Assembly: GCA_017431345.1 (NCBI GenBank)
Contig: JAFRLH010000041.1
Span: 1 to 64,000, forward strand
Direction of reading: 5' to 3'
DNA length: 64,000 bases
From: Lachnospiraceae bacterium
GTDB taxonomy: Bacteria > Bacillota > Clostridia > Lachnospirales > Lachnospiraceae
The position numbers and the translations under genes were made by a program. Within the stretch, counting starts at the first letter, position 1. The number at the start of each line of letters is the position of its first letter. The notes under the pieces were generated by a model. The model had not been told where the DNA came from, searched no databases, and saw only the letters and a program-made list of their open reading frames with translations. This document shows positions 37,195 to 46,460 of this stretch, one piece after another.

Positions 37195-37380
37195 GAACAA
37201 TCAGCCTGGGGTGCTCGAGGACCCGATTATTTTGAACCTACATTCTTACTTACGGGATTCCTAAATCGGCTGATGGATGTCAGGCCTCCTCCGAGTGGAA
37301 GGCAGTAAGTCCGCCTGCGGATACCCACCTGGCTTTCGGCTGGGACTCAAAAGACGGGAACGACACCCCGGGTATTATGA
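37195..37380 (+). ncRNA. ssrS: 6S RNA (RNA polymerase regulator)
   Basis: The 5' CCTGGGGTG (37205-37213) pairs with 3' CACCCCGGG (37364-37372), closing a long rod. Internal segments such as TTGAACCTACATT, ACGGGATTCCTAAATCGG and the GGCCTCC...GGAAGGC hairpin resemble clostridial 6S RNAs as I remember them. The rod with a central open bubble mimics an open promoter and sequesters sigma-70-type holoenzyme. Its own promoter and terminator flank it. Ends are approximate (+/- 10 bases). Confidence 0.75.
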
Positions 37381-41448: not shown

Positions 41449-41847
41449 TTACTTCACCAGATCGCTCAGTTTTTTTCCGTAAAAGAAGTTATGGACCATT
41501 TCGTCGTATTCCGACCACATCGGCAGTGTCTGGCAGGCCTCTTTTCTCGGACACTCATTTGTCCCGGCAGCAAGGCAGGCAACAGAGGAGAGCGTGCCTT
41601 CCATCAGCTCCAGGATCTCGCCGACATTGTATTCTTCGGGATGCCGGCACAGCTTATACCCGCCGCCTTTTCCGCTGGCGCCGGTAAGCAGGCCGCCCGT
41701 GACCATTTCTTTCACGATGATCTCCAGATATTTTTTCGAGATTCCCTGCCTGGCAGCGATATCCTTTAACGGAATATAGCTGTCCGTTTCATTTTCGGCA
41801 AGATCGATCATCACGCGGAGTGCGTACCGTCCTTTTGTCGAGATCAA
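41449..41847 (-). CDS. Rrf2-family regulator (IscR/CymR-like)
   Basis: This 132-residue Rrf2 protein has a winged helix-turn-helix at residues 1-75 (STKGRYALRVMIDLA, DIAARQGISKKYLEIIVKEM, GKGGGYKL). The later half holds three cysteines as C-x7-C-x5-C (CLAAGTNEC-PRKEAC). The spacing is slightly longer than the [2Fe-2S] ligand set of IscR, and CymR lacks such Cys. It diverges from iscS-iscU, and matching inverted repeats lie at its own promoter and two others. It probably senses Fe-S or cysteine status. Start TTG 41847, since no in-frame ATG is available and AGGGGG lies 10 bases upstream. Confidence 0.88.
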   Translation of the reverse strand: MISTKGRYALRVMIDLAENETDSYIPLKDIAARQGISKKYLEIIVKEMVTGGLLTGASGKGGGYKLCRHPEEYNVGEILELMEGTLSSVACLAAGTNECPRKEACQTLPMWSEYDEMVHNFFYGKKLSDLVK

Positions 41848-41923: not shown

Positions 41924-41957
41924 ACCTATTGACACAGTAGGTAAAAGGGTGTAAAAT
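41924..41957 (+). promoter_or_regulatory. iscS-iscU promoter with Rrf2-type operator
   Basis: TTGACA (41929-41934), 17 bp, TAAAAT (41952-41957). The -35 sits inside ACCTA-TTGACACAG-TAGGT (41924-41942), an inverted repeat with 5-bp arms. A bound Rrf2 dimer would block RNA polymerase. The same 19-bp site recurs at 43677-43695. Confidence 0.75.
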
Positions 41958-43676: not shown

Positions 43677-43710
43677 ACCTATTGACATAGTAGGCGGATG
43701 GTGATAAAGT
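43677..43710 (+). promoter_or_regulatory. Promoter of the metY leader with Rrf2-type operator
   Basis: TTGACA (43682-43687), 17 bp, TAAAGT (43705-43710). The -35 is embedded in ACCTA-TTGACATAG-TAGGC (43677-43695), which differs at two positions from the 19-bp iscS operator. It therefore appears to be a second target of the same regulator and drives transcription into the structured leader. Confidence 0.7.
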
Positions 43711-43733
43711 AACGGCAAGCAAAAACAAAGAAA

Positions 43734-43767
43734 CGGCAGAGGACAGGGGGATGAAAGTCCTCTGCCG
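43734..43767 (+). promoter_or_regulatory. 5' leader hairpin with ATG in its loop
   Basis: CGGCAGAGGA (43734-43743) and TCCTCTGCCG (43758-43767) form a perfect 10-bp stem. The loop contains AGGGGG and an in-frame ATG (43751), so folding would mask this alternative start of the small ORF. Confidence 0.6.
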
Positions 43768-43789
43768 GAACCAGACGGAGGACAGACAA

Positions 43790-43903
43790 ATGTTCAGGAA
43801 TTTCAGATCAGCGTATACATTCTGCATGATGTGTCGAATGCTTAACTCCCGGGCAGATAAAATGGCTGGGGTGTTCGGCTGCACGCAGAACGCCGCAAAA
43901 TGA
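43790..43903 (+). CDS. Small ORF (37 codons) with a Cys-Met-Met-Cys-Arg-Met run; leader peptide or microprotein
   Basis: ATG 43790 has GGAGGA seven bases upstream, so translation is plausible. The frame ends at TGA 43901-43903 and encodes 37 residues. ATG 43751, in frame, would give 50 residues with one more Cys. Codons 12-17 read Cys-Met-Met-Cys-Arg-Met, and Cys-31 follows. It lies between an Rrf2-controlled promoter and the sulfur genes metY-cysK. The codons just after the Cys/Met run (43841-43855) form one strand of a long stem. I recognise no protein family. It may be a sulfur-sensing leader peptide, a small Cys protein, or a chance ORF over a structured RNA. Confidence 0.5.
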   Translation: MFRNFRSAYTFCMMCRMLNSRADKMAGVFGCTQNAAK

Positions 43904-43972
43904 TCTGAAAGACCAAATCCAGAGATCAGCCGATTGCCCGGGAGCTTAAGCAGAAGCCTCCGGGCTTTTGTT
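43841..43972 (+). ncRNA. Structured leader element with alternative terminator before metY-cysK (candidate riboswitch/attenuator)
   Basis: CTTAACTCCCGGGCA (43841-43855) pairs with TGCCCGGGAGCTTAAG (43935-43950, one bulge). Inside, GGCT/AGCC (43864-43867/43928-43931) closes a three-way junction with a 7-bp hairpin (43870-43876/43888-43894) and a 5-bp hairpin (43902-43906/43923-43927). The 3' strand of the outer stem can instead pair with CCTCCGGGC (43957-43965), followed by TTTTGTTTT, a credible intrinsic terminator. It does not contain SAM-I, T-box or other leader signatures I know. Pairings were found by eye. Confidence 0.5.
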
Positions 43973-43994
43973 TTGGGATGGGAAGTGAAAATAA

Positions 43995-44142
43995 CTGTCA
44001 TCCTGAGGAACTTCAGTTCCGAAGGATCCTCGCCGTAAAACGATCGGTTTTACGAAAACCGAAGTTGTAAAGCAAGCGGTTCTGCTAAAACCGAAGCCGT
44101 AAAGCGGTGGATTCTTCAGGCTTACAGCCTTCAGAATGACAG
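43995..44142. repeat. Dispersed repeat, copy 2, with terminal inverted repeats (MITE-like)
   Basis: It begins CTGTCATCCTGAGG and ends with the near-complement CCTTCAGAATGACAG, giving imperfect terminal inverted repeats of about 14 bases around 120 bases of interior. The interior carries GAAGGATCC, CGCCGTAAAACG and GGTTTTACG blocks shared with the copies at 40651 and 49360. No ORF is inside. It separates the structured leader from metY. Confidence 0.7.
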
Positions 44143-44217
44143 ATAAAGAAGACTTGTAAAAACAAAAATTTCTGAAACAGAATATCCATCAATACAAAAT
44201 GAAAAGGGAGAAATAAA

Positions 44218-45498
44218 ATGAGCAAATACAAATTTGAAACACTGCAGCTTCACGTAGGACAGGAACAGCCCGATCCGGCCACAGACGCCCGCGCCGTTCC
44301 GATCTATCAGACCACATCGTATGTTTTCCATAACAGTCAGCACGCTGCAGACCGTTTCGGCCTGGCCGATCCCGGCAACATTTACGGAAGACTGACGAAC
44401 TCCACACAGGATGTCCTTGAAAAGAGACTGGCGGCACTGGAAGGCGGAAGCGCAGCGTTGGCACTTGCATCCGGCGCGGCAGCAATCACTTATACGATAG
44501 AAGCACTCGCAGCGAACGGCGGGCATATCGTAGCACAGAAGACGATCTATGGCGGCAGTTACAATCTGCTGGCGCACACGCTTCCGCAGTATGGTATTAC
44601 AACAACTTTTGTTGACGCGCATGATCTTGCCGAGGTCGAGAACGCGATTCAGGAAAACACGAGAGCGGTCTATCTGGAGACGCTCGGAAATCCCAACAGC
44701 GATATTCCGGATATCGACGCCGTTGCGGAGATCGCCCATAAACACGGACTGCCTCTGGTAATCGACAACACATTCGGTACACCGTATCTTATCCGTCCGA
44801 TCGAACACGGTGCAGATATCGTTGTTCATTCCGCTACGAAATTCATCGGCGGACACGGTACTACACTCGGCGGCATCATCGTGGAATCCGGAAAATTTGA
44901 CTGGAAGGCAAGCGGGAAATATCCGAATATCGCAGATCCCAATCCCAGCTACCACGGCGTATCCTTCTATGAGGCAGTCGGTCCCGCCGCTTTTGTGACC
45001 TACATCCGTGCGATCCTGCTGCGTGATACCGGTGCGACGATCTCACCCTTTGCGGCGTTCCTGCTTCTTCAGGGCGTGGAAACATTATCGCTGAGACTGG
45101 ACAGACATGCGGAAAATACAGTGAAAGTAATCGATTATCTGAAGAGCCATCCGCTGGTGGAAAAGGTGAATCATCCTTCGCTGCCGGATCACCCTGATCA
45201 TGCGCTTTATGAAAAGTATTTCCCGAATGGAGGCGCTTCCATCTTCACCTTCGAGATCAAGGGCGGAAAGGAAGAAGCCTGGAAGTTCATTGACGCACTG
45301 GAAATCTTCTCGCTTCTCGCCAATGTTGCTGATGTGAAGAGCCTGGTGATCCATCCGGCTTCCACGACTCACTCGCAGCTGTCAGAGGAAGAGCTTTCGG
45401 ATCAGGGGATCTATCAGAACACGATCCGCCTGTCCATCGGAACAGAACACATTGATGATATTATCGCAGACCTTGAAAAAGGATTTGCCGCGATATAA
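44218..45498 (+). CDS. metY: O-acetylhomoserine aminocarboxypropyltransferase (sulfhydrylase)
   Basis: This 426-residue PLP enzyme of the Cys/Met-metabolism family makes homocysteine from O-acetylhomoserine and sulfide. Landmarks are PIYQTTSYVF, NIYGRLTNSTQD, LASGAAAI, the aspartate/PLP segment VIDNTFGTPYL, and the Schiff-base Lys in VVHSATKFIGGHG. The long insert and 426-residue length are typical of MetY; MetB/MetC are near 380-400. ATG follows AGGGAGAA. cysK follows after 29 bases, so the two form an operon probably under Rrf2/leader control. Confidence 0.9.
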   Translation: MSKYKFETLQLHVGQEQPDPATDARAVPIYQTTSYVFHNSQHAADRFGLADPGNIYGRLTNSTQDVLEKRLAALEGGSAALALASGAAAITYTIEALAANGGHIVAQKTIYGGSYNLLAHTLPQYGITTTFVDAHDLAEVENAIQENTRAVYLETLGNPNSDIPDIDAVAEIAHKHGLPLVIDNTFGTPYLIRPIEHGADIVVHSATKFIGGHGTTLGGIIVESGKFDWKASGKYPNIADPNPSYHGVSFYEAVGPAAFVTYIRAILLRDTGATISPFAAFLLLQGVETLSLRLDRHAENTVKVIDYLKSHPLVEKVNHPSLPDHPDHALYEKYFPNGGASIFTFEIKGGKEEAWKFIDALEIFSLLANVADVKSLVIHPASTTHSQLSEEELSDQGIYQNTIRLSIGTEHIDDIIADLEKGFAAI

Positions 45499-45527: not shown

Positions 45528-46460
45528 ATGTCGAACATTTATAAAGGAGCGATCGAGCTTATAGGGAACACACCGCTTGTCGAGGCCGTCAATATCGAGA
45601 AGAAGCTGGGGCTGGAAGCCACACTGCTGCTGAAGCTGGAGTATTTCAATCCGGCCGGCAGCGTAAAAGACCGTATTGCAAAAGCCATGATCGAAGATGC
45701 TGAAGAGAAAGGGCTCCTGAAAGAAGGTTCCGTGATCATTGAGCCCACCAGCGGGAATACAGGCATCGGCCTGGCTTCGATCGCTGCCGCAAAAGGCTAT
45801 CGCGCGATCTTCACGATGCCCGAGACCATGAGCGTGGAACGCAGAAATATCCTGAAGGCCTACGGTGCGGAGATCGTCCTGACGGAAGGCGCGAAGGGAA
45901 TGAAGGGCGCCATCGCGAAAGCGGAAGAGCTTGCACAGGAGCTTCCCGGCGGATTTATCCCCGGCCAGTTCGTCAATCCTGCGAACCCGGCGATCCACAA
46001 AGCGACGACTGGTCCCGAGATCTTTAAAGATACGGACGGGGCAGTGGATATCTTTATTGCCGGCGTCGGAACGGGCGGAACGGTGACAGGAACAGGAGAG
46101 TATCTCAAAGAGCAGAAACCGGAAGTCAAAGTCGTGGCTGTAGAGCCTGCCACATCGCCGGTGCTTTCCGAGGGGAGAGCCGGATCGCATAAGATCCAGG
46201 GCATCGGTGCAGGATTTGTACCGGATGTGCTGAATACGAAGGTCTATGATGAAGTCTTCAAAGCGGAAAACGAAGACGCTTTCGCAGCCGCAAAGCTGCT
46301 TGCGAAGACGGAGGGCATTTCGGTAGGCATTTCCTCCGGCGCGGCACTGCATGCAGCCATTGAATACGCGAAGAAGTCCGAAAACAAAGGAAAAGTGATC
46401 GTAGCACTGCTGCCTGACAGCGGAGACAGATACTATTCAACACCGCTGTTTACGGAATGA
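45528..46460 (+). CDS. cysK: Cysteine synthase (O-acetylserine sulfhydrylase)
   Basis: This 310-residue PLP enzyme makes cysteine from O-acetylserine and sulfide. Motifs are ELIGNTPLVEA, the PLP Lys in NPAGSVKDRIA, the substrate loop PTSGNTGIGLA, the phosphate-binding GVGTGGTVTGTG, and the C-terminal LLPDSGDRYYSTPLF. ATG 45528 was selected over the in-frame ATG 24 bases earlier because AGGAAAGGGG lies at better distance and the protein then starts at the family's usual point. Co-transcribed with metY; a strong terminator follows. Confidence 0.95.
   Translation: MSNIYKGAIELIGNTPLVEAVNIEKKLGLEATLLLKLEYFNPAGSVKDRIAKAMIEDAEEKGLLKEGSVIIEPTSGNTGIGLASIAAAKGYRAIFTMPETMSVERRNILKAYGAEIVLTEGAKGMKGAIAKAEELAQELPGGFIPGQFVNPANPAIHKATTGPEIFKDTDGAVDIFIAGVGTGGTVTGTGEYLKEQKPEVKVVAVEPATSPVLSEGRAGSHKIQGIGAGFVPDVLNTKVYDEVFKAENEDAFAAAKLLAKTEGISVGISSGAALHAAIEYAKKSENKGKVIVALLPDSGDRYYSTPLFTE

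Follow-up and report, generated by a model that had tools for sequence, protein, structure and literature searches.

Ribosome-mediated attenuation is a known form of control whose classical trp/ilv scheme includes a protector (1:2) hairpin; T-boxes read tRNA through a specifier codon in RNA structure, without a leader ORF. Among described systems, the closest to the leader analyzed here is the uORFC-8-2 motif, which in the accessible part of its description occurs in Rhodobacterales before cysS and carries tandem Cys codons, usually as codons 14 and 15 (PMC8632094). The polycysteine sORFs of mycobacteria are leaderless according to the title of Canestrari 2020 (cited in PMC13236596), and their regulation is presented as translation attenuation in the accessible text of PMC13236596; that of PMC1262725 reports no conserved hairpins able to serve as terminators in mycobacterial cys leaders. 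In Clostridium perfringens, cysteine T-boxes precede cysK-cysE, cysP1 and cysP2; the accessible text of the same source places several clostridia without a T-box before cysK and allows that other controls of cysteine metabolism may exist (PMC2940859). Histidine leader peptides are described in bacilli in place of T-boxes in the accessible part of PMC2965389, and the uORF candidates seen in that of PMC11109978 include none for cysteine.

We analyzed a leader upstream of metY and cysK in a 64,000-nucleotide stretch of DNA from a Lachnospiraceae bacterium (contig JAFRLH010000041.1; hereafter, the window), and we interpret it, with a probability of about 0.8, as a ribosome-mediated, cysteine-responsive transcription attenuator behind an Rrf2-controlled promoter. 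The features of an attenuator are present: a translatable ORF with a ribosome-binding site, control codons in fixed places, and a mutually exclusive antiterminator and terminator, joined in the window by a second, non-exclusive hairpin. As far as the accessible description of uORFC-8-2 goes, the two have in common a leader ORF, tandem Cys codons at positions 14 and 15 (the commonest form here), an intrinsic terminator and predicted readthrough at low Cys-tRNA (PMC8632094). Whereas uORFC-8-2 is there described from alphaproteobacteria and from cysS only, with the Cys codons inside its first stem and a third stem that lacks covariation, the present leader is clostridial, precedes many sulfur genes, has three covarying helices and an Rrf2-type operator, and places its Cys codons outside, 14 to 17 nt before antiterminator helix P1. 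It resembles the mycobacterial polycysteine sORFs, as far as these are described in the accessible texts, in having a short ORF with Cys codons before cysteine genes, but it has a Shine-Dalgarno sequence and an intrinsic terminator and is not leaderless. With the cysteine T-box it shares the pathway, the proposed tRNA-Cys sensing, transcription termination and occurrence in a clostridium (in the accessible part of PMC2940859), but it matched no T-box covariance model. Control codons and mutually exclusive antiterminator and terminator are common to it and the trp/ilv-type attenuators; unlike in those, a protector hairpin (P0) is unsupported, the 5' strand of the antiterminator lies inside the ORF after the control codons, and some genomes hold several copies. 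Our literature searches of open-licence papers found no published description of the element, and for a cysteine attenuator leader in clostridia we found neither an Rfam match nor an earlier description.

The leader and its neighborhood

Gene order in the window is Rrf2-family regulator gene, iscS/nifS, iscU, leader, metY and cysK (Table 1), and a 6S RNA lies farther upstream at 37200-37378 (Rfam RF00013, 65 bits). A first-pass annotation, made from the letters of the window, had described an ORF-less, structured leader behind an Rrf2-type operator on a promoter. The operator is present where it was described, as an exact box with a TTGACA -35 element, and the -10 box sits about 80 nt upstream of the leader start codon. 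The switchable leader behind this operator also stood up to analysis, whereas its ORF-less reading did not: the stem is overlapped by the coding sequence of a conserved leader peptide with Cys codons, so that an attenuator in which the ribosome does the sensing (through tRNA-Cys) is much more probable than a metabolite aptamer.

Table 1. Features of the leader and of neighboring genes, in positions of the window. P1, P2 and P3 are helices of the antiterminator.
Feature	Position	Strand	Remarks
Rrf2-family regulator gene	41449..41847	-	scores below cut-off for both IscR and CymR
Second operator copy	41925..41941	+	exact; before iscS/nifS-iscU, beside the divergent Rrf2 gene
Rrf2-type operator, CCTATTGACATAGTAGG	43678..43694	+	identical to the box that most homologous leaders have upstream; overlaps -35
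Promoter	43682..43710	+	TTGACA 43682-43687, TAAAGT 43705-43710, 17-nt spacer; -10 read by eye
5' hairpin, 11 bp	43734..43767	+	CGGCAGAGGAC 43734-43744 with GTCCTCTGCCG 43757-43767; also in the 96% identical sibling
Shine-Dalgarno sequence GGAGGA of leader peptide	43777..43782	+	seven bases before ATG
Leader-peptide ORF	43790..43903	+	37 aa, MFRNFRSAYTFCMMCRMLNSRADKMAGVFGCTQNAAK, then stop
Control codons TGC ATG ATG TGT (Cys-Met-Met-Cys)	43823..43834	+	last Cys codon 14 nt before P1
CGA ATG	43835..43840	+	right after control codons
P1, 5' strand, CTCCCGGGCA(G)	43846..43856	+	Ser-Arg-Ala codons; inside leader ORF
P2, 5' strand	43863..43866	+	pairs with 43929-43932 (P2 3' strand, +)
P3 hairpin	43870..43894	+	GGTGTTC 43870-43876 / GAACGCC 43888-43894; conserved
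P1, 3' strand, (T)TGCCCGGGAG	43934..43944	+	common to antiterminator and terminator
Intrinsic terminator	43936..43974	+	43936-43947 with 43954-43965; U-tract TTTTGTTTT 43966-43974
Competing hairpin	43948..43973	+	43948-43958 with 43963-43973, pairing the U-tract; absent from the first-pass annotation
metY, O-acetylhomoserine sulfhydrylase	44218..45498	+	TIGR01326 632 bits, cut-off 495
cysK, cysteine synthase A	45528..46460	+	TIGR01139 444 bits, cut-off 351

The spacer between terminator and metY contains a dispersed repeat (43994-44150) with 24 matches in its own genome at E ≤ 1e-5, itself included; the other copies have 76-89% identity. This repeat may be why the metY start lies unusually far from the leader in the window. 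The 5' hairpin, first recorded as 10 bp, is present with 11 bp but lies outside the element common to the homologues.

Occurrence, operator and downstream genes

When 61 genomes (the window's own and 60 relatives) were searched at the DNA level, six matched: the own genome, one sibling, two genomes with the stem region only, which encode MMCCRMLISRA and MMCCRMLNSRT, and two with the operator region only. Searching 397 genomes of the family with the peptide identified 15 at E ≤ 0.05, some of them by chance, and a nine-row peptide alignment identified 44 of the 397 at E ≤ 0.01, weak ones included; the motif was absent from three matches of the first protein search (L012, L016 and L018) and one of the alignment search (L061), which were rejected. 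Among named public contigs, 12 loci were found, in records titled Lachnospiraceae, Clostridiales, Lachnoclostridium, Eubacterium, Saccharofermentans and Solobacterium. A covariance model built from 37 leaders matched 55 of 397 genomes of the family (E ≤ 0.01), 15 of 341 of the class (E ≤ 0.01) and 5 of 348 of the phylum (E ≤ 0.001), with the own genome counted each time and a few weak matches judged to be chance; these genome sets are samples of larger groups, and the scoring filters lose some weak matches. Up to four copies occur per genome (G270). The own genome has one leader; a second match there (E 0.065) has no leader ORF and was left out.

The 37-row alignment was made without L054, L056, L047 and L030, which were short, long, with N, or weaker, and without the near-duplicates L023, L036 and L046. 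Before leaders were counted, we left out L131, L134, L147 and L148 as chance or wrong-strand matches, the antisense matches on L066, L067 and L073, and the phylum matches L158 and L159; L157, from the phylum sample, looks genuine but postdates the counts. Of the resulting 97 rows, 92 were parsed into leaders; parsing returned no result for L072, L080 and L137 and passed over L120 and L153. One of the 92, L067, was misread; the peptide there (seen as L032/L036) has MWCCRML.

As the first-pass annotation had proposed, the leader belongs to no known family by these searches: T-box and SAM covariance models were unmatched, and no Rfam family reached its gathering score in the leader region, where matches at the E-value level lay far below gathering scores (the best was ar7, on the opposite strand, E 0.038). 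The window's leader peptide had no Pfam match up to E 1 and no NCBIfam match up to E 10; one of two relatives' peptides matched an NCBIfam entry at E 0.061, which we judged to be chance.

With up to two mismatches, the operator box CCTATTGACANNNTAGG was found upstream of 72 of the 92 leaders (53 exact) and is lacking in 20, compared with 2 of 460 shuffled stretches; the operator region is not part of the covariance model. With up to one mismatch allowed, the own genome has three copies of the box, against one of a control pattern: before iscS (41925), before the leader (43678) and before a transporter-like ORF, recognized by eye, on another contig. The copy beside the Rrf2 gene likely reflects autoregulation and a regulon shared between Fe-S and cysteine genes, judging from its position. 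The local Rrf2 protein is the proposed binder of the leader operator, and three of its Cys residues, picked out by eye, could be Fe-S ligands. In another genome, metY has an Rrf2-type box and no leader element in between (L005:1501-1538), with the start codon about 60 nt past the box; that genome has a leader at another place (L106).

To identify the genes that follow, which are not in the model, we grouped the ORFs after 101 hits by BLAST and scanned cluster representatives. By our tally, 87 of the 101 hits precede a sulfur-related gene: 51 Cys/Met PLP enzymes, 21 NlpA/MetQ-type lipoproteins, five amino-acid permeases, three MetN-like ATPases, and single cases of cysK, a cystine-binding-protein-like gene, a sulfopropanediol dehydratase-like gene, ThiF-rhodanese, rhodanese, GCS2 and MetK. 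The cysK of L086 and the MetK of L155 were recognized by eye, and several transporter assignments lie below curated cut-offs. The other 14 comprise four GST-like genes (one scanned), a LysR regulator, a cyclase, an M20 peptidase, an unassigned protein (L133), an HD-type protein and a dehydrogenase (both by eye), and four hits judged false. No cysS was seen among the downstream clusters, as scanned by their representatives; the window itself has metY. At L076 (1501-1661), the downstream gene scores best, below cut-off, to (2S)-3-sulfopropanediol dehydratase, the ORF as fetched covering 476 of 821 profile positions; a sulfonate-degrading enzyme is thus apparently under cysteine control there, to judge from sequence.

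Control codons, helices and terminator

Cys codons peak at -17 nt from P1, in 72 of the 92 leaders, and at -14 nt, in 73; in 78, the Cys codon nearest to P1 is at -11, -14 or -17. In 43 of the 92 leaders the start codon lies at -56 from P1, so that in these the codons at -17 and -14 are the 14th and 15th. Among 57 held-out leaders, which were not used in building the model, 55 have at least one Cys codon at -32 to -11 and 45 have two, counts that lean towards Cys because the model includes those columns. Cys codons at -32 to -11 are UGU in 184 cases and UGC in 28, and farther upstream in the leader peptides Cys accounts for 7 of 617 codons. An SD-like motif precedes all 92 leaders, partly by construction, as the parsing script demanded one. 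Cysteine had been listed among candidate signals at first pass, and the control codons point to it.

Three leaders depart from this pattern. In L146 (1501-1628), upstream of a gene for a MetN-like ATPase, the peptide contains RMMRMLHSRA and is encoded with Met codons but without a Cys codon; P1 and the terminator are kept by eye, and a changed amino-acid specificity is possible. In L137 (1501-1661) a stop codon stands right before P1, so that the ribosome would not enter the antiterminator, and P1 and the terminator look kept. In L130, Phe and Gly occupy the positions where Cys is usual.

The signal could instead be methionine, or both sulfur amino acids, read through the Met codons around the Cys pair. 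AUG stands at -8 in 87 and at -20 in 55 of the 92 leaders, MetQ/MetN-like genes are among the targets, and L146 pairs Met codons with a MetN-like gene. The positioning of the Cys codons at -17 and -14, and the fact that only 2 of the 57 held-out leaders are without a Cys codon at -32 to -11, argue against this reading, which we regard as unlikely.

The two codons that follow the control codons are nearly invariant: CGA makes up 78 of the 79 Arg codons at -11 across the 92 leaders, and AUG follows at -8. None of the 40 Arg codons in the window's iscS, iscU, metY and cysK is CGA; in the rest of the leader peptides it is common (71 of 223 Arg codons). No supported base pairing involves CGA-AUG; a slow codon, a nascent-chain effect and a polymerase pause are candidate explanations of its near-invariance. 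The second of these could extend to sensing by the nascent chain, with the conserved M-C-C-R-M acting as an arrest peptide that responds not only to tRNA-Cys charging but, for example, to thiol redox, a metal or an Fe-S precursor. We consider such sensing quite improbable, because the variants MCMR, CMMC, CWC, MCCC, MCCCS and MCCL retain the architecture, which fits codon reading better than it fits a fixed peptide motif, and because the N-terminal part of the peptide is variable.

A protector hairpin, P0 (TCGAAUGC/GCGUUCGA), would have explained CGA-AUG but lacks covariation support, as 468 of 1000 nulls reached the covariation observed in 97 leaders; its 5' strand barely varies, which gives the test low power. 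On 37 sequences the signal was weak (reached by 1 of 500 shuffles for double-change cells and by 217 of 500 for pair types), and P0, though it had looked attractive by eye, was not kept as a claim.

The peptide frame stays open in most leaders within the structured region. Between the start of P1 and +36, stops occur in the peptide frame in 5 of 91 leaders and in the other two frames in 27 and 38; this is a fairer comparison than another frame count (5, 84 and 75 of 91), which is inflated because starts were picked by walking the open frame. The stop codon precedes the 3' strand of P1 in all 92 leaders, by 10 to 137 nt, and lies 0-24 nt past P3 in 73 of 88.

The stretch 43677-43990 folds 5 sd below dinucleotide shuffles, none of 100 being as stable; a repeat search with default settings found no inverted pairs, although the stem is present. 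The outer stem had been given 15 bp; in the minimum-energy fold P1 has 11 bp (43846-43856 with 43934-43944), and the outermost pairs of the longer stem are used elsewhere in that fold, though GCTTAA (43840-43845) can pair with TTAAGC (43946-43951), with one bulged base between. The three-way junction suggested for its interior does appear in the minimum-energy fold, with P3 and 43901-43906 paired with 43923-43928 as arms. Across 86 loci, the linker that would hold the second arm folds slightly better than mononucleotide shuffles (mean z -1.25).

Based on a MAFFT alignment of 37 leaders, P1 (10 bp), P2 (5 bp) and P3 (6 bp) are paired in 86% of cells, compared with 28-50% when the partner is slid, and none of 500 shuffles reached the covariation of P1-P3. 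The compensatory base changes that had been set as a check are found in all three helices and include GGCT with AGCC, GACA with TGTC and CCAGG with CCTGG and, in P2, TGACC with GGTCA. In an alignment of 97 leaders, 60 of them not used for the model and some of these close relatives of those used, each of P1, P2 and P3 outdid all 1000 replicates of a tree-based null, whether scored by double changes or by percent paired. In each replicate the columns evolved independently along a FastTree tree, with as many changes per column as were observed; the 97-leader alignment was fitted to the model structure and leans towards it, whereas the MAFFT alignment was not. A metabolite riboswitch, with P1-P3 as an aptamer for cysteine, O-acetylserine, SAM or Fe-S status and with an ORF that plays no part, would also suit covarying helices that are nested and have an alternative terminator, ahead of sulfur genes, but the peptide frame kept open after P1, the Cys codons held in position, the simple stems of P1-P3 with a coding P1 5' strand, and the lack of an Rfam riboswitch match at gathering score make this very improbable.

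The 3' strand of P1 had been predicted to switch into a terminator, and we found this arrangement in the window and in 89 of the 92 leaders, in which the strand pairs downstream ahead of a T-run. The median energy of this hairpin is -15.5 kcal/mol, compared with -1.9 kcal/mol for the downstream part without the P1 strand; the window's terminator has -18.7 kcal/mol (z -4.2 vs mononucleotide shuffles). The call of a riboswitch or attenuator is thereby borne out as an antiterminator/terminator leader.

The competing hairpin in the window gives -14.7 kcal/mol for the downstream part alone, spares the stem strand and stands beside P1 in the minimum-energy fold. By its predicted structure, it could aid readthrough by hiding the U-tract, or it could terminate weakly by itself. 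Of 89 leaders, 10 show a hairpin below -6 kcal/mol in the downstream part, the window's leader among them.

We folded 76 leaders at equilibrium with the ribosome footprint kept single-stranded. When the footprint covered the 5' strand of P1, the terminator won in all 76; stalling the ribosome at the last Cys codon favored the antiterminator in 53. The antiterminator was ahead in 42 without a ribosome and in 28 with a ribosome at the stop codon; in the window it stays ahead even then. There is no clean switch at equilibrium, so we assume that switching depends in part on the relative timing of the ribosome and the polymerase.

Proposed mechanism and significance

The ORF, the Cys codons at fixed spacing, the covarying P1, P2 and P3, the terminator that shares a strand with them, the operator and the sulfur genes are read directly from the sequence; stalling, the limiting amino acid, the direction of control, its timing and the action of Rrf2 at the operator are what we infer. 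In the mechanism that we propose, RNA polymerase would be followed by a ribosome that translates the leader peptide. A ribosome's leading edge lies about 15 nt ahead of its P site, so that with the last Cys codon in the A site it would reach just to the start of P1. When Cys-tRNA is scarce, the ribosome would stall at the Cys codons with its leading edge just before the 5' strand of P1; P1, P2 and P3 would then fold and sequester 43935-43944, and polymerase would read into metY-cysK. When Cys-tRNA is plentiful, the ribosome would pass through P1-P3 towards the stop codon, itself before the 3' strand of P1. P1 would then be occluded as its 3' strand emerges, this strand would pair downstream, and transcription would end at 43966-43974.

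Points against the attenuator reading are the failure of P0, the lack of a clean switch at equilibrium, the second hairpin, the departures from the pattern in L146, L137 and L130, and CGA-AUG. The second hairpin led us to lower our confidence in this reading from 0.83 to 0.80. Without a supported protector hairpin, an untranslated leader should read through.

A broader and more tentative proposal, which we think may well not hold in full, is a regulon-wide clostridial module that would place copies of one sequence unit ahead of around a dozen classes of sulfur genes. Such a module would have no protector hairpin and would be ON by default when untranslated, would take an Rrf2/Fe-S repressor as second input, would use an obligatory CGA-AUG, placed after the Cys codons, to time the ribosome, and would have exchangeable codon specificity (Met in L146), as in T-boxes.

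The leader element is a candidate for the type of answer that may apply in clostridia without a cysK T-box, as those are described in the accessible part of PMC2940859. Its covariance model can be used to annotate targets, and it points to unexpected ones: the sulfopropanediol dehydratase-like gene and the rhodanese and GST-like genes. In this arrangement a single leader would couple an Rrf2-type promoter to the supply of sulfur amino acids, and if the attenuator reading is true, many clostridia sense cysteine by something other than a T-box or a riboswitch.
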